IMG/VR virus record: IMGVR_UViG_3300035698_018820
Span: 1-23,172 of that record
DNA length: 23,172 nucleotides
Source of the DNA: a virus
Strand: one strand, 5' to 3'
This document shows positions 4,928-13,740 of this stretch, in pieces (the first letter of the stretch is position 1; every line of letters begins with the position of its first letter). The notes beneath the pieces are model-generated. The model worked only from the letters and a program-made list of their open reading frames with translations, was not told the DNA's origin and made no database searches. The position numbers and the translations under genes are program-made.

Positions 4928-5108
4928 TTTGATAGGACGTGGGTTCGACTCCCACCAGCTCCACTATTTGGTAGATAAATGTTTTTGGGGCTGCCTTGGA
5001 TTTGACTGTTAAAGAAGTATGGTATATAGAAAATTAATTTAATATACAAAAGGCAATTTTTTGCAAAAGGCAGCATAATTTTATAAGATGAAATTATAAT
5101 GCAGCCCC
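4928..5108 (+). ncRNA. ssrA: Circularly permuted transfer-messenger RNA (two-piece tmRNA)
   Basis: tmRNA rescues stalled ribosomes and adds a degradation tag. Here its 3' half comes first: P2 strand TTTGATAG (4928-4935), GAC, T arm GTGGG-TTCGACT-CCCAC (4939-4955), acceptor CAGCTCC (4956-4962), discriminator A4963, without encoded CCA. After a 23-nt spacer (4964-4986) comes the 5' half: acceptor GGGGCTG (4987-4993), D-like CCTTGGATTTGA, P2 strand CTGTTAAA (5006-5013), a GTATAT/ATATAC stem, then the tag. Acceptor strands pair over 7 bp with one G-T; P2 pairs over 8 bp with two. The best tag frame is GGC at 5052 to TAA at 5078, peptide GNFLQKAA, ending in Ala-Ala as SsrA tags do; a GCA start at 5063 would give AKGSIIL. 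The stop codon lies in a hairpin (5075-5081 with 5091-5097) like P5. A mature form would need cuts in the spacer and CCA addition. No downstream T arm exists, so it is not a one-piece gene. Confidence 0.85.
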
Positions 5109-5135
5109 GATGGAGGCATAATATCCATCATTTTT
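5109..5135 (+). terminator. Rho-independent terminator of the tmRNA gene
   Basis: GATGGA (5109-5114) and TCCATC (5124-5129) form a perfect stem with a 9-nt loop, followed by A and five T's. It directly follows GCAGCCCC and marks the end of the permuted tmRNA transcript. Confidence 0.7.
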
Positions 5136-5157
5136 CAAAAAAATAAATTAGTTATAT

Positions 5158-5763
5158 ATGATAAATAACGAAGAAAGAAATAGATTACGTGATATTTTAT
5201 ATCCAATAATGTATGCTATCAATAGACATGATAAAGAAAATAAATTACAATATTGTATAGGTGGTGGAGCTGTTTTAGATACACTTGCTGATAATACAGT
5301 ACATAATGACTTTGATATATTTTTAGGGGATATTACTAATGGAGATTATTTTTATCAAATATTAAATGATATAGGATATTCACAAATATTTCAAAATGAT
5401 TGGGTAAGAAGATTTAGAAGTTATCATAATTATATAGATGTAGCACATTTTAAAAACTTCTCTCCCGTAGAATATGTTTTAAATGTAGATATGACTGTTT
5501 CTGCAGTTTGTATTGACAATGATTATAAATTATACTGTCATCCTGATTTCTTTAATGATATGAGAAGCAGGATTATTAATATCAAATCATTACAAAATAG
5601 AAAAGAAGCTATTAACAAACGAATGAAAAAAATGCAGGCTAAAGGATATACACCAACAGTTCAAGCCAAAAAAATAATACAATTATTTAACAGCAATGGT
5701 GATTATTCTAAATATCTCAAAAGTAATATTGATTATCAAACTCAAATAATTGATCTAATATGA
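5158..5763 (+). CDS. Nucleotidyltransferase (pol-beta superfamily, CCA-transferase-like head)
   Basis: Residues 32-55 read YCIGGGAVLD...HNDFDIFLGD: the Gly-Gly loop (35-37) and the D-x-D metal pair (D51, D53) of the pol-beta nucleotidyltransferase fold, with D111 in VLNVDMTV a plausible third carboxylate. At 201 residues it is shorter than complete tRNA CCA-adding enzymes but carries the head-domain layout; the basic C-terminal helix region (about 145-175) could bind RNA. It could add nucleotides to RNA 3' ends; seven of the eight tRNAs and the tmRNA here lack encoded CCA, and this gene follows the tmRNA. An unrelated NMP-transferring role, as in toxins, remains possible. No Shine-Dalgarno sequence; its stop overlaps the next start (ATGA). 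Confidence 0.75.
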   Translation: MINNEERNRLRDILYPIMYAINRHDKENKLQYCIGGGAVLDTLADNTVHNDFDIFLGDITNGDYFYQILNDIGYSQIFQNDWVRRFRSYHNYIDVAHFKNFSPVEYVLNVDMTVSAVCIDNDYKLYCHPDFFNDMRSRIINIKSLQNRKEAINKRMKKMQAKGYTPTVQAKKIIQLFNSNGDYSKYLKSNIDYQTQIIDLI

Positions 5764-6077
5764 AAAATACAGAAGACTTCCAGAAAATAAAACATAAAAT
5801 TTTAAGTATATATCCAAATGCATATACAAAAATTACTAAAAAAGGTCGATACTATTTAGTAGATGAACAGGGATATAGAATATTAAATGATGAATATAGA
5901 ATAACAGATCAAGATACTCTATATGAAGCATGGAAAAAAACATTAGAAATGTTATGGAATCAAACAATAATATTACGAAACAATAGGAAGTTCGACGAGG
6001 ACAAAATGATGAATAATATAATGAAAAAAATAAAAGAAAAAACCGACACGTTTTATTCATCCGACACATATATATAA
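5760..6077 (+). CDS. Hypothetical protein coupled to the nucleotidyltransferase
   Basis: 105 residues, lysine-rich, with a compact predicted alpha/beta N-terminal part (residues 10-45, KIKHKILSIYPNAYTKI...GRYYLVDEQGYRIL) and a helical C-terminal half. No motif, signal or membrane segment recognised. The ATGA overlap with the nucleotidyltransferase gene implies coupled translation and possibly a partner role. Followed by a 295-bp gap, so it is probably the last gene of its transcript. Confidence 0.6.
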   Translation: MKNTEDFQKIKHKILSIYPNAYTKITKKGRYYLVDEQGYRILNDEYRITDQDTLYEAWKKTLEMLWNQTIILRNNRKFDEDKMMNNIMKKIKEKTDTFYSSDTYI

Positions 6078-6372
6078 TAGATAAAAGTTACATAATAAAT
6101 ATTGAAAATTAAAAGTTACCGTTAAAAATTAAATTAGTAAATTTAAGGTTAAAATTAAACACAGATCTGTATTAAAAATATGAGTCAGTGGTATTACGAA
6201 ATACCACTATAAATTCTATTGACATACCTTAAATTTAAGTAAATATATTCTGTAAGAATATAATAAATATTTTTTAACGAAGTTGAAAATTTTAATCTAC
6301 GATTAAAAATAGTATAGTTATAACTTTATAATAATAGTAATAATATATACTTATATAAAATATACATTGTAT
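6078..6372 (+). promoter_or_regulatory. 295-bp AT-rich non-coding gap with hairpin and possible promoter
   Basis: No open frame of useful length. It contains repeated runs of the type GTTAAAAATTAAA (about 6110-6160), a perfect 9-bp hairpin AGTGGTATT/AATACCACT with loop ACGA (6187-6208), and a consensus-like TTGACA at 6219-6224 followed 17 nt later by AATATA. A host-type promoter for the gene at 6373 is a reasonable reading, weakly supported. The AT-rich repeats could also mark a replication origin, with nothing specific to confirm it. Confidence 0.35.
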
Positions 6373-7023
6373 ATGAATGAAAAAAATTATATAATAAATA
6401 ATTGGTCTGTTAAAGATGTATTCAATAATTCTTATTGGGATAATATATTTACAGAATACTATTCACAAGATACAATTTTAGATGATCCATTTACCTTATT
6501 AACTTCAGGAACAAAACGAAGTGGTGAAACTGATATATCATACGAAAGTTGGGAAATATTACCTGACACAATTAGAAATAAATTATTTGATAACAACCCA
6601 GTAATATATGTATTATGGTTTGTTGACTTAGCTAGTGATGAAATTAGTTTACTTCTCAATGTTATAAATAATACTTCAGAGGATAATATATATCAGTATA
6701 TTGTAGCTACAGAATCATTTAAAAAATTACAATTACAAAAAAATAAAGCTCACACGGATATGTTTGAGGAGTCTTTTAATAATTCAGAAATCTCAACTGT
6801 TGATATGAGTCAGTTACTTATATATTTTTTAGAAGAAATTAAAAAAAGAAAAGTAATTTCGTTTTCTACAAAACATTTTGTCATGATAGGTGGTTCTTCA
6901 ATTGAAAAAGTCGAAGGTATTCGTAAAATAATGAATAAAAAATATAAGTTAAAATATAAACTAGATATGAAACTAAGGAAAAGGGTATTACCTATATACA
7001 TATATGAACTAAAAGTTACATAA
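6373..7023 (+). CDS. Hypothetical protein
   Basis: I use the ATG at 6373; an in-frame TTG two codons earlier gives no advantage. The 216-residue product has acidic N-terminal and basic C-terminal halves, no membrane segment and no motif I recognise. The C-terminal 60 residues (TKHFVMIGGSSIEKVEGIRK, then a Lys-rich stretch ending in YIYELKV) look like a small beta/alpha module. The stop overlaps the next start by one base, placing it in an operon with the nuclease-like gene. Confidence 0.6.
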   Translation: MNEKNYIINNWSVKDVFNNSYWDNIFTEYYSQDTILDDPFTLLTSGTKRSGETDISYESWEILPDTIRNKLFDNNPVIYVLWFVDLASDEISLLLNVINNTSEDNIYQYIVATESFKKLQLQKNKAHTDMFEESFNNSEISTVDMSQLLIYFLEEIKKRKVISFSTKHFVMIGGSSIEKVEGIRKIMNKKYKLKYKLDMKLRKRVLPIYIYELKVT

Positions 7024-7445
7024 TGAGTCTTAATGAACAAGGTATTGCGGGTGAAAAAATGGCTCGCGAATGGTTATTAGATAAATACAGATATAATTTA
7101 AAAAATTTAACTCAAATTGATTGGCTTATTAAAGATATTAATGGTGATTGGTTTTGTGTTGAAGTTAAAAATAAAAAACGATTTAAAGGTTCAAAATATT
7201 ATTCTGATAAACCAAAGTATAACACATTTGAAGGACATGGATTAGATTTAAGACAATTTAATTACAGAATGGATTTATGGTCTGATAAAGATATACCATG
7301 TTTATTTTTAATTTTCGAACCAGATACTAAGTATATATATTATCAGTGGTTAAGTGTATTAAAAGATAAAGATAATCATTTAATAACAAAAAATAATATA
7401 ATAATATTTGATATCAAAGATTTTAATTGTGAAACGAGGAAATAA
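7023..7445 (+). CDS. PD-(D/E)XK nuclease-like protein
   Basis: 140 residues. The start NEQGIAGEKMAREWL gives a conserved Glu (E11) on a helix, followed by QIDWLIKD (D33) and WFCVEVKNKK (E47-V-K49). The order Glu, Asp, Glu-x-Lys on beta strands is the PD-(D/E)XK core shared by Holliday-junction resolvase-like, restriction-type and very-short-patch nucleases; a second conserved-looking block is GLDLRQFNYRMDLW. It would cut DNA with Mg2+. Specific role unknown; recombination or host-DNA breakdown are options. Starts inside the upstream stop (TAATG). Confidence 0.6.
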   Translation: MSLNEQGIAGEKMAREWLLDKYRYNLKNLTQIDWLIKDINGDWFCVEVKNKKRFKGSKYYSDKPKYNTFEGHGLDLRQFNYRMDLWSDKDIPCLFLIFEPDTKYIYYQWLSVLKDKDNHLITKNNIIIFDIKDFNCETRK

Positions 7446-7447
7446 TT

Positions 7448-7648
7448 ATGGAAGTTACATATGATATAAATGGAATACAAACAAAATATAATGCCGATTA
7501 TAAGGATGCATATGTTATATTTAATAATATAAAAATATATAAAAAGTATCATCCTAATGTATTTGAAGCATTAACAATTAAATCCTCAGAACATTTTGAT
7601 TTTAGAATTGTACCTTTACAAGGAGTAATTTTGACCAAAATAAAATAA
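7448..7648 (+). CDS. Small hypothetical protein
   Basis: 66 residues beginning MEVTYDINGIQTKY, with alternating hydrophobic residues suggesting a beta-rich fold. GAGG lies 10 nt before the ATG, inside the end of the nuclease-like gene, so it is the next gene of that operon. No recognised family. Confidence 0.6.
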   Translation: MEVTYDINGIQTKYNADYKDAYVIFNNIKIYKKYHPNVFEALTIKSSEHFDFRIVPLQGVILTKIK

Positions 7649-7705
7649 AAGTAGTAAAAAAACACGAAGTTAGTATATATATAATAAATAATAAGGAAGT
7701 ACACC

Positions 7706-7888
7706 ATGAGAACAAAAATTTTAGTAAGAAAACATCTGGACAGAGTAAATATTTTAATTACTAATGTTAAAAAAGGTATGGAAACTAATACTATTACAGA
7801 AGCTCAAACTTTTAATGTTATAAAAGAATTAGAAAAAGAACTTGAGTTTATAACAGAAAAAATTGAGTTGGAGCCTGACAGCTACTAA
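7706..7888 (+). CDS. Small helical hypothetical protein
   Basis: 60 residues with a good Shine-Dalgarno (AAGGAAG) upstream of the ATG. The C-terminal half, NVIKELEKELEFITEKIELE, is a short amphipathic helix that could form a dimeric coil. No recognised family. It begins 57 bp after the previous gene and ends 7 nt before the membrane-protein gene. Confidence 0.6.
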   Translation: MRTKILVRKHLDRVNILITNVKKGMETNTITEAQTFNVIKELEKELEFITEKIELEPDSY

Positions 7889-7895
7889 TAAATAA

Positions 7896-8933
7896 ATGAA
7901 AGAACGTTTATTACAAATATTTTTGATTATTACTGCTTTAGCTGTTGCAACATCAGCTGCTTACTTTTCTATATTTGGATTATCTAAATTATTCGCAGGA
8001 GCTATAACTGCTGTGATAATCATGGCATCTGTATTAGAAGTAGGTAAAGTAATGGCAGTTTCATATCTCTATCGGTTTTGGAAATATGTGAAAATTCCTA
8101 TGAGAATTTATTTATTTACAGCTATAATAGTTTTAATGACTATTACCAGTATGGGAATATATGGATTTTTAAGTAATGCATACAAAAAAACATCGACAGG
8201 ATTTGAATCTGCAAATCAAGGAATAGGTGTATTAGAACAAAGAAAACAAATATTTATAGATCAAATCGATAACTATAAATCTCAATCTGAAACATATGAT
8301 AATAGAATTAAATTATTATCTGAAATTAGAAATCAACAAGAGAATAGATTAGATTCATTATATTCTAAAGAATATTGGATTAGTATACGAAGAACAGAAA
8401 AAAGTATAAACGATGCTAATGATAATATTAATGATTTAAATTCAGAGAATAAATTAATATCAATGCAAATTATAGCATTGTCAGATTCAATAGGTAAAAT
8501 TGATTTAAATATATCACAAATACAAAATAATGAATTTAGTGCTGATTTAGGACCATTAATTTATATATCCGAATTAACTGGAAAGGATATGGATAAAATT
8601 GTTAATTGGTTTATTTTATTATTGATATTTGTATTTGATCCTTTAGCAGTAAGTTTAATATTAGCTGTAAATCAAGTGACATTACATATAAATAAAAATA
8701 AAAGAAGAAATAATCGAATTGCTAAATTAGATAAAGAATCAACTGAAAAATTAGGAAATCAACAAAAAAATGTGTATATTAAGAATACAGTATTATCTGA
8801 AGATGAAGCTATTGATAAAAATAAATTGAAACAAATATATAAACAATTATTTGATCAAGAAGAAGAACCTGATACTGATAATACCAATATAAAAAAAGAT
8901 ATAATTAATATAAAAAAAAAGATTAAAGATTAA
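7896..8933 (+). CDS. Multi-pass membrane protein with central coiled coil
   Basis: 345 residues. Three N-terminal membrane segments (about 7-25, 33-57 and 72-92) precede a long hydrophilic coiled coil (about 110-212), then a fourth membrane helix (237-259) and a charged, Lys/Glu-rich tail. The GLSKLFAGA...EVGKVMAVSYLYRFW and TSMGIYGFLSNAY blocks resemble, as I recall, a conserved but uncharacterised membrane protein of many environmental tailed phages; the role is unknown (envelope remodelling, lysis control and exclusion are all guesses). Odd feature: just before the stop lies an A9 run (8912-8920), and one frame over the reading continues to 9078 with 9-residue repeats, so an extended form through slippage, or a sequencing/indel error, is possible. 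Confidence 0.7.
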   Translation: MKERLLQIFLIITALAVATSAAYFSIFGLSKLFAGAITAVIIMASVLEVGKVMAVSYLYRFWKYVKIPMRIYLFTAIIVLMTITSMGIYGFLSNAYKKTSTGFESANQGIGVLEQRKQIFIDQIDNYKSQSETYDNRIKLLSEIRNQQENRLDSLYSKEYWISIRRTEKSINDANDNINDLNSENKLISMQIIALSDSIGKIDLNISQIQNNEFSADLGPLIYISELTGKDMDKIVNWFILLLIFVFDPLAVSLILAVNQVTLHINKNKRRNNRIAKLDKESTEKLGNQQKNVYIKNTVLSEDEAIDKNKLKQIYKQLFDQEEEPDTDNTNIKKDIINIKKKIKD

Positions 8934-9078
8934 GCCTACTAAAATAGTAAAACACGAAGAAACTACTAAAACAGTAAACCAAGAAGAAACTACTAAAATA
9001 GTAAATCAAGAAAAAAATACTATAACAAAAATGAATAAAAACGGTGGAATACAGTATTATAAAGTTCCAAAAAAATAA
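8914..9078 (+). other. Out-of-frame C-terminal continuation of the membrane-protein gene
   Basis: After the A9 run the +1 frame is open to TAA 9076-9078. It reads, from the point where frame 0 stops, PTKIVKHEE, TTKTVNQEE, TTKIVNQEK, then NTITKMNKNGGIQYYKVPKK. It has no start codon of its own before the repeats, no stop, and protein-like composition; it otherwise fills a 152-bp gene-free gap. Loss of one A, or ribosomal/transcriptional slippage on A9, would append about 50 residues to the 7896 product. Confidence 0.55.
8935..9015 (+). repeat. Three 27-bp tandem repeats (9-residue periodicity)
   Basis: Units at 8935-8961, 8962-8988 and 8989-9015 share the core ACTAAAATAGTAAA with a few changes (A to C at one site, AAACAC to AACCAA). 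Differences mostly conserve a T-K-[IT]-V-x-x-E pattern in the +1 frame, which suggests the repeats are or recently were translated. Confidence 0.8.
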
Positions 9079-9085
9079 ATAAATT

Positions 9086-9574
9086 ATGATAGGGAGTTCA
9101 AAGAGTCATTTTAAAACTGTTATATGTTCTAGATGTCATAAGATGTCAATGAAGATAGATATTAAAGCTGTTTCGGGAATATGTTGGATGTGTGTTCAAA
9201 TGATGTGTGATCCACCAGCTCAATATAAAAAAGCAGACCCTAATAAAAAACCCAGAGGTTGGGCATTTATGAATGAGTTTGTTGATAAGGAAGGAAATGT
9301 ATATCATAAAGGAATAGAACAACCTGAATTAAAAGGTACTAAAGAATCTACTGTTATAAAACCTAAAGTTGCGAAGAAAAGATTATCTAAAAAACAAAAG
9401 ATTAGGATGATGGATACTGCAGCAGCAAAAATGTATGACGTGAAGAAACAAATTGATACACTGGGTAAAGGTAAAGGCAATAAGGGAAAGATAAAAGTCT
9501 TAGAAAAAGAAATGAAAAAATTAGAAAGAATTGCATCCGGAAAAATTAAAAGTACAGATGAAAATAATATATAA
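9086..9574 (+). CDS. Zinc-finger-type hypothetical protein
   Basis: 162 residues. The N-terminus has two Cys pairs, CSRC (14, 17) and CWMC (33, 36), probably one zinc-binding site, with an extra Cys41. A conserved-looking RGWAFMNEFVDKEGNVYHKG block follows, then a very basic, Lys-rich helical C-terminal half ending in a coil (KKQIDTL...KVLEKEMKKLERI). This suggests nucleic-acid or protein binding. No enzyme motif. No Shine-Dalgarno sequence; the 3' end overlaps the deformylase-like gene by 17 bp. Confidence 0.6.
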   Translation: MIGSSKSHFKTVICSRCHKMSMKIDIKAVSGICWMCVQMMCDPPAQYKKADPNKKPRGWAFMNEFVDKEGNVYHKGIEQPELKGTKESTVIKPKVAKKRLSKKQKIRMMDTAAAKMYDVKKQIDTLGKGKGNKGKIKVLEKEMKKLERIASGKIKSTDENNI

Positions 9575-10157
9575 CATAGAAGAATTAAAAATGAAATGTG
9601 AATCACATTTCATTTTCGAAGAGAATCAAAAGATTGCTAAAGAATTGTTTAAAACTTTAGTAGATCATCCTACTGGTAATAAATTAGCTTGTAATCAAGT
9701 AGGAGTTACGAATCGTAGAGTAGCAGTTGTAAATGTAAAGGAACCGATATATTTAATAAATCCTCATATAATTGAGAGTAATATTTTAATTAATTTTATA
9801 TCTGATGATTTATCGTTTCCTCAAAAAATTGTTCCTACTCATAAATATGCACAAATATTAGTTGCGGCAGATAATTTTAAGACGCCAATAACTTTTGGAG
9901 TTAAAAATCATACAGAAGAAATGCCTATAACACATCCTAATATAGTAGAAGCATGTGCAATACAACATGTGATTGATATGTTAGATGGAATACACATGTT
10001 TGATAGATTAACTGTAAATAAAACGAATATACCTATATATAAAACAACTAAAGTTCCACGAAATAAAATAGTAACTTTAATCAAAAATGGAGAGAAAATC
10101 ATGATAAAGTCTAAATTTGCTGGAAAATATACATCTAATGGTTGGAAAATCAATTAA
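9558..10157 (+). CDS. Peptide deformylase homologue, probably inactive
   Basis: I start at ATG 9558 (199 residues), overlapping the previous gene by 17 nt; a TTG at 9531 or an ATG at 9591 are alternatives. The order of segments is that of peptide deformylase, which removes the formyl group from new proteins: motif I G-N-K-L-A-C-N-Q-V-G (40-49), motif II region ISDDLSFPQ (81-89), motif III IQHVIDMLDGIHMFDR (135-150). But the catalytic residues are gone: EGCLS has become SDDLS (metal-ligand Cys replaced by Asp), and QHExDH has become QHVIDM (catalytic Glu to Val, second metal-ligand His to Met). Only His137 remains of the usual ligands. The fold is probably intact, since glycines and hydrophobic positions are kept. 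Possibly a binding decoy at the ribosome or a structural use of the fold. Confidence 0.8.
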   Translation: MKIIYNIEELKMKCESHFIFEENQKIAKELFKTLVDHPTGNKLACNQVGVTNRRVAVVNVKEPIYLINPHIIESNILINFISDDLSFPQKIVPTHKYAQILVAADNFKTPITFGVKNHTEEMPITHPNIVEACAIQHVIDMLDGIHMFDRLTVNKTNIPIYKTTKVPRNKIVTLIKNGEKIMIKSKFAGKYTSNGWKIN

Positions 10158-10984: not shown

Positions 10985-11740
10985 ATGAATTTAAAAGTAG
11001 ATGAATTAAAAGAAAATTATGATAAACTAATAGAAATAATTAATAAAAATTTTACAGGTGATCGTAAAGAAAAATTATTAAAAATGTATGATGATTTGGG
11101 GGAGCGGATGCTTTTAGCACCTGCTTCTTCTTATAATTATTTTCATGGAGCATTTCCTGGTGGATATGTAATTCATGTATTAAATGTAGTTAAAATTATA
11201 CAAACAGTATATAAATTGTGGAAACATTATGGTGCATATACAGATGATTATACATTTGAAGAATTAATATTTGTCGCTTTAAATCATGATTTAGGTAAAA
11301 TAGGAAATCCAGAACATGAATTTTATCTTCCAAATGATTCTGATTGGCATATAAAAAATCAAGGTAAATATTATGTATTGAATCCAAAATTGCAACATAT
11401 GAAACATGCCGATCGTTCTATATTTTTCTTACAACATTATGGTATTAGAATGACGGAAAATGAAATGTTATGTATACAATTACATGATGGTCCATTTGAT
11501 AAATTTAATGCATTTAATTTTGATACCTTTAGTGAAGAAAAAATGCTGAAAAGTAATTTAGTATTTATATTAAATCAAGCAGACCATATATCATATAGAA
11601 CAGAATATGAATTGTGGAGAAAAAATAAAGGGAAATATTTTAATCCTACAAAAAAATTAAAAACAGTAAAACCAGTAAATGCAGAACAAAAGTTTAGTAA
11701 CTTATTTGATGATGTAGATAAAAAAAGTAAAAAGGAGTAA
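10985..11740 (+). CDS. HD-domain metal-dependent phosphohydrolase
   Basis: 251 residues with the HD signature: GGYVIHVLNV (H64), ALNHDLGKIG (H101, D102), further His in KHADR (141) and LHDG (167-168), and the final Asp in NQADH (200). Such enzymes hydrolyse phosphate esters in nucleotides or cyclic nucleotides. The His-rich set between residues 137 and 168 is typical of larger HD hydrolases. AAGGATA serves as ribosome site. The C-terminal 40 residues are Lys-rich and low complexity. The substrate is unknown; nucleotide salvage or a signal-nucleotide degrading (anti-defence) role are possible. Confidence 0.8.
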   Translation: MNLKVDELKENYDKLIEIINKNFTGDRKEKLLKMYDDLGERMLLAPASSYNYFHGAFPGGYVIHVLNVVKIIQTVYKLWKHYGAYTDDYTFEELIFVALNHDLGKIGNPEHEFYLPNDSDWHIKNQGKYYVLNPKLQHMKHADRSIFFLQHYGIRMTENEMLCIQLHDGPFDKFNAFNFDTFSEEKMLKSNLVFILNQADHISYRTEYELWRKNKGKYFNPTKKLKTVKPVNAEQKFSNLFDDVDKKSKKE

Positions 11741-11744
11741 TGTT

Positions 11745-12047
11745 ATGGAGTTATGGATTATAATAATATTGGTAATATTATTAGGAGTTTCAATTTTTAT
11801 TAATTTTAATTTATTTCGTAAATATGAATATATGGAAAATGAATATAATATTTATTCGTCCAATATAGATAATTATTTAACTAAAATGTTAAAACAAATA
11901 CGTAATATTCATATTAACATAAATAGAATAGATGAACGAGGTTCATTTGAAGCTGATGATGAAATTGGTTTTTTCTTCAAAGAAATTAAAAAAATGGATG
12001 AATCATTGAGCAGTTTTCTTCCAGAAAATTTGGATGGTCAAAAATAG
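11745..12047 (+). CDS. Small single-pass membrane protein
   Basis: 100 residues: a hydrophobic helix at 3-23 (LWIIIILVILLGVSIFINF), then a charged, helical domain ending in an acidic stretch (DDEIGFFFKEIKKMDESLSSF). One membrane span with a coiled-coil-prone tail fits a spanin- or holin-accessory-like protein, but no motif proves it. AAGGAG, lying in the last codons of the HD gene, is its ribosome site. After its stop a 130-bp gap (12048-12177) holds AT repeats and a small hairpin AAGTC/GACTT (12106-12119), possibly a promoter region. Confidence 0.65.
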   Translation: MELWIIIILVILLGVSIFINFNLFRKYEYMENEYNIYSSNIDNYLTKMLKQIRNIHININRIDERGSFEADDEIGFFFKEIKKMDESLSSFLPENLDGQK

Positions 12048-12177
12048 GGTTTTCCAAAAATTTTACATATATATATAGTATATGTACCTTATATTTGTTA
12101 GTTTTAAGTCAGTTGACTTTCAAATTGTTTAAAAGCAAATAAAAAATTAGCAAATGATTATTTAAATTGGAGGAATT

Positions 12178-12945
12178 ATGAATCAAGTCGCAATCGACAC
12201 TTACCCATCTGCCTTTATTGGCACCAACAAAAATCGTTTAAAAATATATGAAAATAATAATATTTTCTTAAATGATAATCAAGAATTTCAATTCGAATTA
12301 TTTAACTCTACTAATGAAGTCATAGGAGCCAAAATATGGTTAAATGATAAATTATCATCTGATACAATATTAGTATTAAAACCAGGTGAACGTATTTGGT
12401 TGGATAGATACTTAGATGATAATAAAAAATTTATCTTTAATACTTATGAAGTTGATAATGAAAAAACAGTATTAGAAGCAATTAAGAAAAACGGTAAAAT
12501 TAAAATTGAATTTTTTAATGAATGTAATAGTATTACCACAGTAACTGGAACTACTAATACATGGATATATGATGGTAATATCACTACCACACCATATAAT
12601 AATGATATTCCATTTAATTGTACATCAGATGTAATGTATTCATCATGCAATCCTATAAAAGTAAAAGGTGATACAACAGAAAAACAATTATTGTGTGATT
12701 CTAAACAGGATAATAAACTTGAAACTGGTAGAATAGATAAAGGCAGTGAGTCAGCTCAAATATTTAATAATGTGAATTATAATTTCAATTGGTATGCTTT
12801 TCATACAATTGAATATATTATGTTACCAATATCACAACAAAAGGTAATTACTAAAAAAGATATTAAATCTTATTGTAATGAATGTGGTATAAGAATCAGA
12901 CAAAAAACATGGAAATATTGTCCTAAATGTGGGACTAAAATTTAA
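12178..12945 (+). CDS. Hypothetical (probably structural) protein with C-terminal zinc ribbon
   Basis: 255 residues. The N-terminal part is beta-rich and includes LKPGERIWLDRYLDDNKKF (about 67-85), a pattern I associate with an uncharacterised family in large phages. The middle is Asn/Thr-rich. The C-terminus is a clear zinc ribbon: CNEC (233, 236) and CPKC (248, 251). A strong Shine-Dalgarno (TTGGAGGA) precedes the ATG, implying high expression, in keeping with a virion or late protein. No enzyme motif. Confidence 0.6.
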   Translation: MNQVAIDTYPSAFIGTNKNRLKIYENNNIFLNDNQEFQFELFNSTNEVIGAKIWLNDKLSSDTILVLKPGERIWLDRYLDDNKKFIFNTYEVDNEKTVLEAIKKNGKIKIEFFNECNSITTVTGTTNTWIYDGNITTTPYNNDIPFNCTSDVMYSSCNPIKVKGDTTEKQLLCDSKQDNKLETGRIDKGSESAQIFNNVNYNFNWYAFHTIEYIMLPISQQKVITKKDIKSYCNECGIRIRQKTWKYCPKCGTKI

Positions 12946-12966
12946 TTAATTTTTTTATTTACATAT

Positions 12967-12974
12967 TATAAATA
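12967..12974 (+). promoter_or_regulatory. T4-type late promoter (TATAAATA)
   Basis: An exact TATAAATA in the 63-bp gap before the sigma/structural block. In T4 this octamer alone, read by gp55, directs late transcription, starting about 6 nt further on. The gene directly downstream is the gp55-like factor itself. AT-richness makes chance matches common, but most other exact copies here fall inside genes. Confidence 0.45.
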
Positions 12975-13008
12975 ATTTAGGAGTTTATTTATAATTAAAA
13001 CGGAGTCT

Positions 13009-13740
13009 ATGATACAGGAAAAAACCGCAGCAGAAAAAAAATACTATTTTACAAAAGATACTGAAAATGCAATATTAAAATATAATGTAAGTATCGATTA
13101 TATAGAAAGAGAAAAATTATATAGGGATGAAATTGGACCAGCATTTGATAAATTATCCGAAGTTTTAATACATAGTTTTAAATTTTATTATGCTGGTGAT
13201 AGTGATTCTATTAAAGATATTAAGAGTAATGTAATTGTATTTTTAATGGAGAAATTACAAAAATATAAACAAGAGAAGGGAAAAGCTTTTTCTTATTTTA
13301 CTATTGTTGCTAGAAATTATTTAATTATTAATAATAGGACTAATTATAAAAGGTTAAAGGATAAAAAACAATTAACTGATATTGATTATGACAATGATTT
13401 AAAGCCAGGATTTTCAGATGAAAGAAAACACAATGAAAAATTAGACTTCTTTGATATATTTATTGAATACCTAGATATTAATTTATCAATATTATTTCCT
13501 AAGAAAAATGATTTTATAATTGCGGATTCAATATTAGAAATAATTAAAAAGCGTGATACTATGAATAGTTTAAATTTAAGTAAAAAAGCTATTTATATTA
13601 TGATAAAAGAAATGATTGATGTGAAATCCCAACAAATTACTAAGGTGGTTAATATATATAAATGTATATACAAATCTGCCTATTTAGATTATATGAAATA
13701 TGGTTATATACAGTCTAATAAAAATTATAGGAGTAGTTAA
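13009..13740 (+). CDS. 55: Late-transcription sigma factor, T4 gp55-like
   Basis: 243 residues. The segment from residue 14 to 125 (FTKDTENAI..., AFDKLSEVLIHSFKFYY, FLMEKLQKYKQEKGKAFSYFTIVARNYLI, NNRTNYKRLK) is a divergent sigma region 2: the aromatic FSYFT block corresponds to the core-binding/promoter-melting helices and matches the gp55-like factors of T4-related marine phages. It redirects host RNA polymerase to late promoters such as TATAAATA. Unlike T4 gp55 it lacks an obvious C-terminal sliding-clamp motif (T4 ends in SLDFLYE); the C-terminal third is unlike any sigma I know. CGGAG is its ribosome site. Next gene overlaps by 1 nt. Confidence 0.78.
   Translation: MIQEKTAAEKKYYFTKDTENAILKYNVSIDYIEREKLYRDEIGPAFDKLSEVLIHSFKFYYAGDSDSIKDIKSNVIVFLMEKLQKYKQEKGKAFSYFTIVARNYLIINNRTNYKRLKDKKQLTDIDYDNDLKPGFSDERKHNEKLDFFDIFIEYLDINLSILFPKKNDFIIADSILEIIKKRDTMNSLNLSKKAIYIMIKEMIDVKSQQITKVVNIYKCIYKSAYLDYMKYGYIQSNKNYRSS

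Follow-up and report, generated by a model that had tools for sequence, protein, structure and literature searches.

The window analysed here, a virus record of 23,172 bases, appears from its gp25 and gp6/baseplate-J homologues to be part of a large T4-like phage genome. It carries a homologue of peptide deformylase (PDF) whose frame opens with an ATG and remains uninterrupted for 199 codons up to its stop at 10155-10157, and which we refer to as the pseudo-PDF (Table 1). The protein scores 54.8 bits against Pfam PF01327, for which the curated cut-off is 22.8, matches the peptide deformylase family PHROG 2890 and finds solved PDFs in a phmmer search. Its AlphaFold model, computed from a 53-sequence alignment, has a pLDDT of 88.7 and matches solved PDFs over residues 1-155 with VIA Z scores of 20-21 (131-140 residues aligned, rmsd 1.4-2.5). 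These matches bear out the original prediction that the PDF fold pattern is kept, and the fold is predicted to be intact.

Table 1. Features of the PDF locus in the window (residue numbers refer to the pseudo-PDF).
Feature	Position	Strand	Characteristics
Upstream gene	9086..9574	+	Carries a GWxFMNEFVDxxGNVxHKGxEQPELKGT module besides two CxxC pairs (zinc-ribbon-like); shares 17 nt with the pseudo-PDF
Inactive PDF homologue (pseudo-PDF), 199 aa	9558..10157	+	Pfam match, AlphaFold model, VIA Z (values in text)
Altered motif I, residues 40-47	9675..9698	+	GNKLACNQ (canonical GIGLAANQ): I41N, G42K, A45C; Q47 kept; alignment; L002 identical
Altered motif II, residues 82-86	9801..9815	+	SDDLS (canonical EGCLS); Asp84 for the metal-ligand Cys; alignment; L002 identical
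Lys96	9843..9845	+	Replaces an Arg invariant among canonical phage PDFs; alignment
Altered motif III, residues 136-141	9963..9980	+	QHVIDM (canonical QHEIDH); Val138 for the general base Glu, Met141 for the second metal-ligand His; H137 (first His) kept; alignment; L002 identical
C-terminal tail, residues 165-199	10050..10154	+	Aligns to the SEC-C or SEC-C-like tail that canonical phage PDFs carry; retains R168, N169, K184 and K186, lacks Cys
Downstream syntenic block	10985..13740	+	Other phages have the HD, membrane and sigma genes next to a canonical PDF, in unchanged order
HD-type hydrolase	10985-11740	+	
Small membrane protein	11745-12047	+	
Zn-ribbon protein	12178-12945	+	
Late-sigma-like protein	13009-13740	+	

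The upstream gene, hereafter the Zn-finger gene, is likely co-translated with the pseudo-PDF. It gave no match in Pfam or NCBIfam, and its long module is found again in other genes of these phages. A Zn-finger gene also abuts or overlaps the PDF gene in the related contig L002 (IMGVR_UViG_3300033143_002834) and in L006, L007, L010 and L022, the nearest canonical relatives. Farther upstream, at 7896-8933, lies a multi-TM coiled-coil protein with a weak Rz-spanin-like PHROG match, conserved ahead of the PDF slot in many related phages. The block order shared among these phages is TM coiled-coil, Zn-finger-module gene, PDF, HD hydrolase, small membrane protein (where detected) and late sigma. A canonical PDF occupies a block of this type in L008, L011, L025, L027, L056, L074 and others, while the L006 contig shows the block from the Zn-finger gene onward and in the huge phage LR756508.1 (484 kb) only a few genes separate a canonical PDF from the same membrane-protein/sigma pair downstream. 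Since it is a canonical PDF that occupies this gene block in related phages, gene order identifies the pseudo-PDF as the vertical orthologue of the canonical phage PDF situated between the Zn-finger gene and the HD-hydrolase/late-sigma block. In L010, positions 4978-9035 form a compact translation/proteostasis island, with IF-3 just upstream of the Zn-finger/PDF pair and Hsp20 and DnaK just downstream, a context consistent with PDF work on nascent chains.

The same block also occurs with an empty PDF slot in L293 (62% in baseplate gp6), L295 and L298, and apparently without a PDF in Flavobacterium phage immuto, which together with Microcystis phage Mel-JY01 is the nearest named phage by sigma and gp6 (~37-47% identity). 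The blocks with the vacant slot, at L293:3547-5422 and L295:2161-4107, show gain or loss of a PDF at a fixed place. Many related phages, including ones that lack a PDF, keep the HD-type hydrolase next to the small membrane protein and late sigma. On this comparison of contigs the slot is variably filled, by a canonical PDF, an inactive one or none, and the PDF gene is dispensable in this phage group, since the three contigs with the empty slot share the same block.

Alignment with the other 71 phage-set PDFs shows the pseudo-PDF to be changed at nine positions (I41N, G42K, A45C, E82S, G83D, C84D, R96K, E138V and H141M), which correspond to E. coli Ile44, Gly45, Ala48, Glu88, Gly89, Cys90, Arg102, Glu133 and His136. 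Retained are Q47 of motif I, L85-S86 of motif II and H137, the first metal-ligand His; their E. coli equivalents are Gln50, Leu91, Ser92 and His132, with Gln50 and Leu91 as the oxyanion-binding pair. Alignment with these relatives confirms the earlier claims that motif II reads SDDLS for EGCLS, that motif III reads QHVIDM for the canonical motif, and that the catalytic Glu and two of three metal ligands are missing (in E. coli numbering first, Glu133 to Val138, Cys90 to Asp84 and His136 to Met141); the alteration of motif I is an addition to that account. The alternative that the true motifs lie elsewhere in the protein was ruled out by the same alignment and by the structural match.

Where active PDFs carry the motif II Cys of EGCLS, the pseudo-PDF has Asp84, and in place of HExxH in motif III it has HVIDM. 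Against the NCBIfam equivalog TIGR00079 it scores 33.3 bits, below the cut-off of 103.95, as compared with 103.9 for the canonical relative L007. The alignment thus shows loss of the general base and two of three metal ligands; since these are replaced, deformylation by the PDF mechanism should be impossible, and it is well supported that the pseudo-PDF no longer deformylates in this way. The A45C change alone might not inactivate the protein, because Ala48 is replaced by Ser in active integron PDFs (PMC12690207). Cys134 has also become Ala; together with G42K and I41N this change touches the presumed pocket for formyl-Met and may have altered or abolished peptide binding. Some metal could still be held by Asp84, His137 and Met141, or a salt bridge between Lys42 and Asp84 might stand in for it.

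The replacements stand out against an otherwise uniform family. The motif II Cys, both HExxH histidines and the Glu are intact in all 71 other phage-set PDFs and in about 80 bacterial PDFs, the minor variants among canonical PDFs being DDCFS in motif II of L268 and QHEVGH in motif III of L026. The L268:4604 region, from a Gemmatimonadota MAG, encodes a bacterial PDF homologue in which DDCFS replaces EGCLS and QHEIDH is intact. Searching viral contigs for the QHVIDML pattern returned, among PDF homologues, only L002, and alignment-based scans of viral and genome contigs for altered motifs returned L002 or nothing. The late sigma and baseplate gp6 neighbours led to no further PDF at those loci beyond the L002 contig. 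A second PDF was sought in 27 records of related phages searched whole, many of them fragments, and PDFs were found only in the L002 contig and LR756508.1, one copy each. The literature searched, mostly without subscription papers, gave no report of an inactive phage PDF. In the tree, the pseudo-PDF falls inside the phage PDFs; the joining of LR756508.1 with L017 carries a risk of long-branch artefact and was left out of inference.

The two known pseudo-PDF members, both on fragments (the 23 kb window and the 20 kb L002), allow the history of the loss to be traced. The PDF homologue of L002 lies at the same locus, scores 50.5 bits against PF01327, is about 55-57% identical to that of the window and has all three motifs identical, so that the substitutions are conserved in a relative. 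Sharing by itself proves little, as these changes come by descent; what counts is their retention, with 30/32 positions identical in the motif windows versus 79/164 elsewhere (Fisher p = 4.6e-7). Because the altered columns are 96-100% invariant across canonical phage PDFs and the same replacements recur in the independent contig L002, we consider the replacements to be far beyond chance. The original prediction took canonical relatives as a sign of recent point loss. Canonical orthologues do occur at the same locus, but a recent point loss is ruled out by the identical motifs of L002. With nine coordinated changes, including a His to Met substitution that requires all three codon bases, shared with L002, the loss of the active site is old, going back to before the two phages, at present 57% identical, diverged.

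Between window and L002, NG86 estimates for the PDF are dN 0.31 and dS 1.34, the latter near saturation (22/37 fourfold sites differ), and resemble those of the HD (0.34/1.56) and sigma (0.33/0.95) genes; identity is likewise similar at 55% for PDF, 56% for sigma and 55% for HD. These estimates indicate that the pseudo-PDF is under purifying selection similar to that on neighbouring genes. Conversely, the pseudo-PDF is only 33% identical to canonical PDFs, versus ~51-54% in canonical pairs with similar sigma or HD divergence, and the stem branch leading to the window and L002 pair is long, at 2.67 changes per column. Taken together, these two values point to rapid change when the activity was lost, followed by renewed constraint. 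The earlier argument that an uninterrupted frame of normal length speaks against decay is strengthened in that the frame is also open in L002, and we interpret the protein as being maintained as a pseudoenzyme.

The C-terminal tail provides a further link to the canonical phage PDFs, the tblastn match between the pseudo-PDF and L006 spanning residues 3-199. A true SEC-C (PF02810) tail above the Pfam cut-off was found in 3/3 relatives tested (L059:5914-6513, L074:4324-4920 and L083:6040-6630), and by eye also in L021, L035, L036, L039, L044, L046, L056, L068, L072, L076 and L082, giving 14 relatives in total. About 55 other phage PDFs have a cysteine-less tail at the same place, of the form GRNxxVTI...KYKKA...GW. 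The pseudo-PDF gave no Pfam match to PF02810 with its Cys-containing GRNDPCPCGSGKKYKKC tail, and in its clade the tail has diverged, with the Gly of the GRN core replaced and cysteines absent. The SEC-C-type metal-binding domain at the C-terminus of SecA binds 70S ribosomes (PMC6620043). Since E. coli PDF docks to the ribosome via a C-terminal region reported as missing from phage PDFs (PMC5591237), the SEC-C-like tail may, by analogy, substitute for that docking region. No report of a PDF with a SEC-C tail was found in the literature searched (again mostly without subscription papers); by these alignments the SEC-C or SEC-C-like tail of these phage PDFs is new here, and the inactive form keeps part of it.

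We hypothesize that the inactive PDF has been kept because it binds nascent chains or the ribosome exit without cutting, a reading to which we give roughly even odds (about 0.5). The metal site and general base were rebuilt in the window/L002 lineage, while the protein would still be found at the workplace of PDFs, either the ribosome exit or the N-terminal formyl-Met of nascent chains, held there in part by its SEC-C-like tail. Binding without cleavage could then set it in competition with host PDF or methionine aminopeptidase, or let it protect N-termini while the host is infected. The original prediction had likewise proposed a use at the ribosome exit site or in formyl-methionine binding, and such a role gains plausibility from the SEC-C-like tail, the translation/proteostasis neighbours in L010 and the kept Gln/Leu oxyanion pair. 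Ribosome docking may nevertheless have been lost in the pseudo-PDF clade, because its tail has diverged. Also counting against this reading are the small number of members (two), the changes at the presumed formyl-Met pocket, the metal that Asp84, His137 and Met141 could still hold, and the empty slot of L293, L295 and L298. A wider proposal, that these proteins form a phage-specific class of PDF pseudoenzymes in which a SecA-type-derived tail docks at the ribosomal exit, formyl-Met nascent chains are captured and N-terminal processing is blocked or redirected during infection, is possible, though doubtful.

The same pattern of change might instead reflect neofunctionalisation, in which N41, K42, C45, S82, D83, D84, K96 and H137 make up a new polar, possibly metal-free site of an enzyme or binder whose ligand is unrelated to nascent chains. 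All nine changes of motif and pocket residues are common to both members, in which the remainder has diverged. This, as well as the very long stem and the low identity to canonical PDFs, is what a functional shift would be expected to leave, and we regard such a shift as possible, though doubtful. The tail and operon partner have been retained, which favours the old setting, and we know of no family with this set of residues.

A purely structural role, with the fold kept as a scaffold for binding a partner on its outer surface (e.g. the overlapping Zn-finger product) and the pocket conserved only as buried, seems unlikely. The motif core is generally buried in PDFs, and the Zn-finger gene touches or overlaps the PDF in the window and several canonical relatives; however, a passive buried core would not favour the identical polar or charged replacements K42, D83 and D84 seen in both members. 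Still less probable is a weak or unusual deformylase using metal held by Asp84, His137 and Met141. Asp can ligate metal and a Type 3 PDF of T. brucei with altered motifs is reported to be active (PMC12690207), but the changes described for Type 3 lie in motifs I and II, whereas here Glu has also become Val and His has become Met with no alternative base evident, and the TIGR00079 score is far below its cut-off. A decaying pseudogene or assembly artefact, which the absence of the gene from many relatives in the same phage group might suggest, is very improbable given a frame open in two independent contigs, purifying selection and identical substitutions, and is contradicted by L002.

If the pseudo-PDF is kept for binding at the PDF workplace, it bears on why phages carry PDFs at all. 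Phage PDFs had been suggested to be active throughout, the first alignments having shown perfect conservation of the catalytic motifs (PMC5591237). That an inactive orthologue is conserved at the same locus implies that it can be useful in itself to occupy the position or the substrate of a PDF, and the pseudo-PDF represents a natural separation-of-function variant with which to ask this question. Moreover, the SEC-C-like tails found more widely among phage PDFs suggest a device for ribosome docking in place of the C-terminal helix that bacterial PDFs have.

Among known systems, the closest are the canonical PDFs of the same block (L006, L007, L009, L010, L014, L022 and LR756508.1), which themselves can be compared with the 'Type 4' PDFs of marine phages. 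They share with the pseudo-PDF the fold family, the C-terminal tail, ~30-40% identity and the neighbourhood of an upstream Zn-finger gene and, where the contig reaches, the downstream HD/late-sigma block; unlike it, they retain EGCLS, QHExDH and the motif I glycine. The PDFs of phages S-SSM7 and Vp16T (3uwa and 5mtc) have the same core fold, with VIA Z of 20.1 and 20.0, but are active with complete motifs (PMC5591237) and have no SEC-C-like tail described. SecA-type SEC-C domains (PF02810) share the GRN...G..KYKK core with phage PDF C-termini, up to true SEC-C in L059, L074 and L083, whereas the pseudo-PDF tail is without cysteines. Type 3 PDFs, which occur in archaea, trypanosomatids and as accessory PDFs of S. 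aureus and S. pneumoniae, have substitutions in their motifs and are weakly active or inactive (PMC5591237, PMC12690207). The pseudo-PDF resembles them in having substituted catalytic motifs (I, II and III) but differs in also losing the Glu and His of motif III; its placement inside the phage PDFs comes from a tree built without any Type 3 sequences. Inactive PDFs are already known in cells as Type 3, while a phage form conserved at its locus and carrying a SEC-C-like tail appears to be new.
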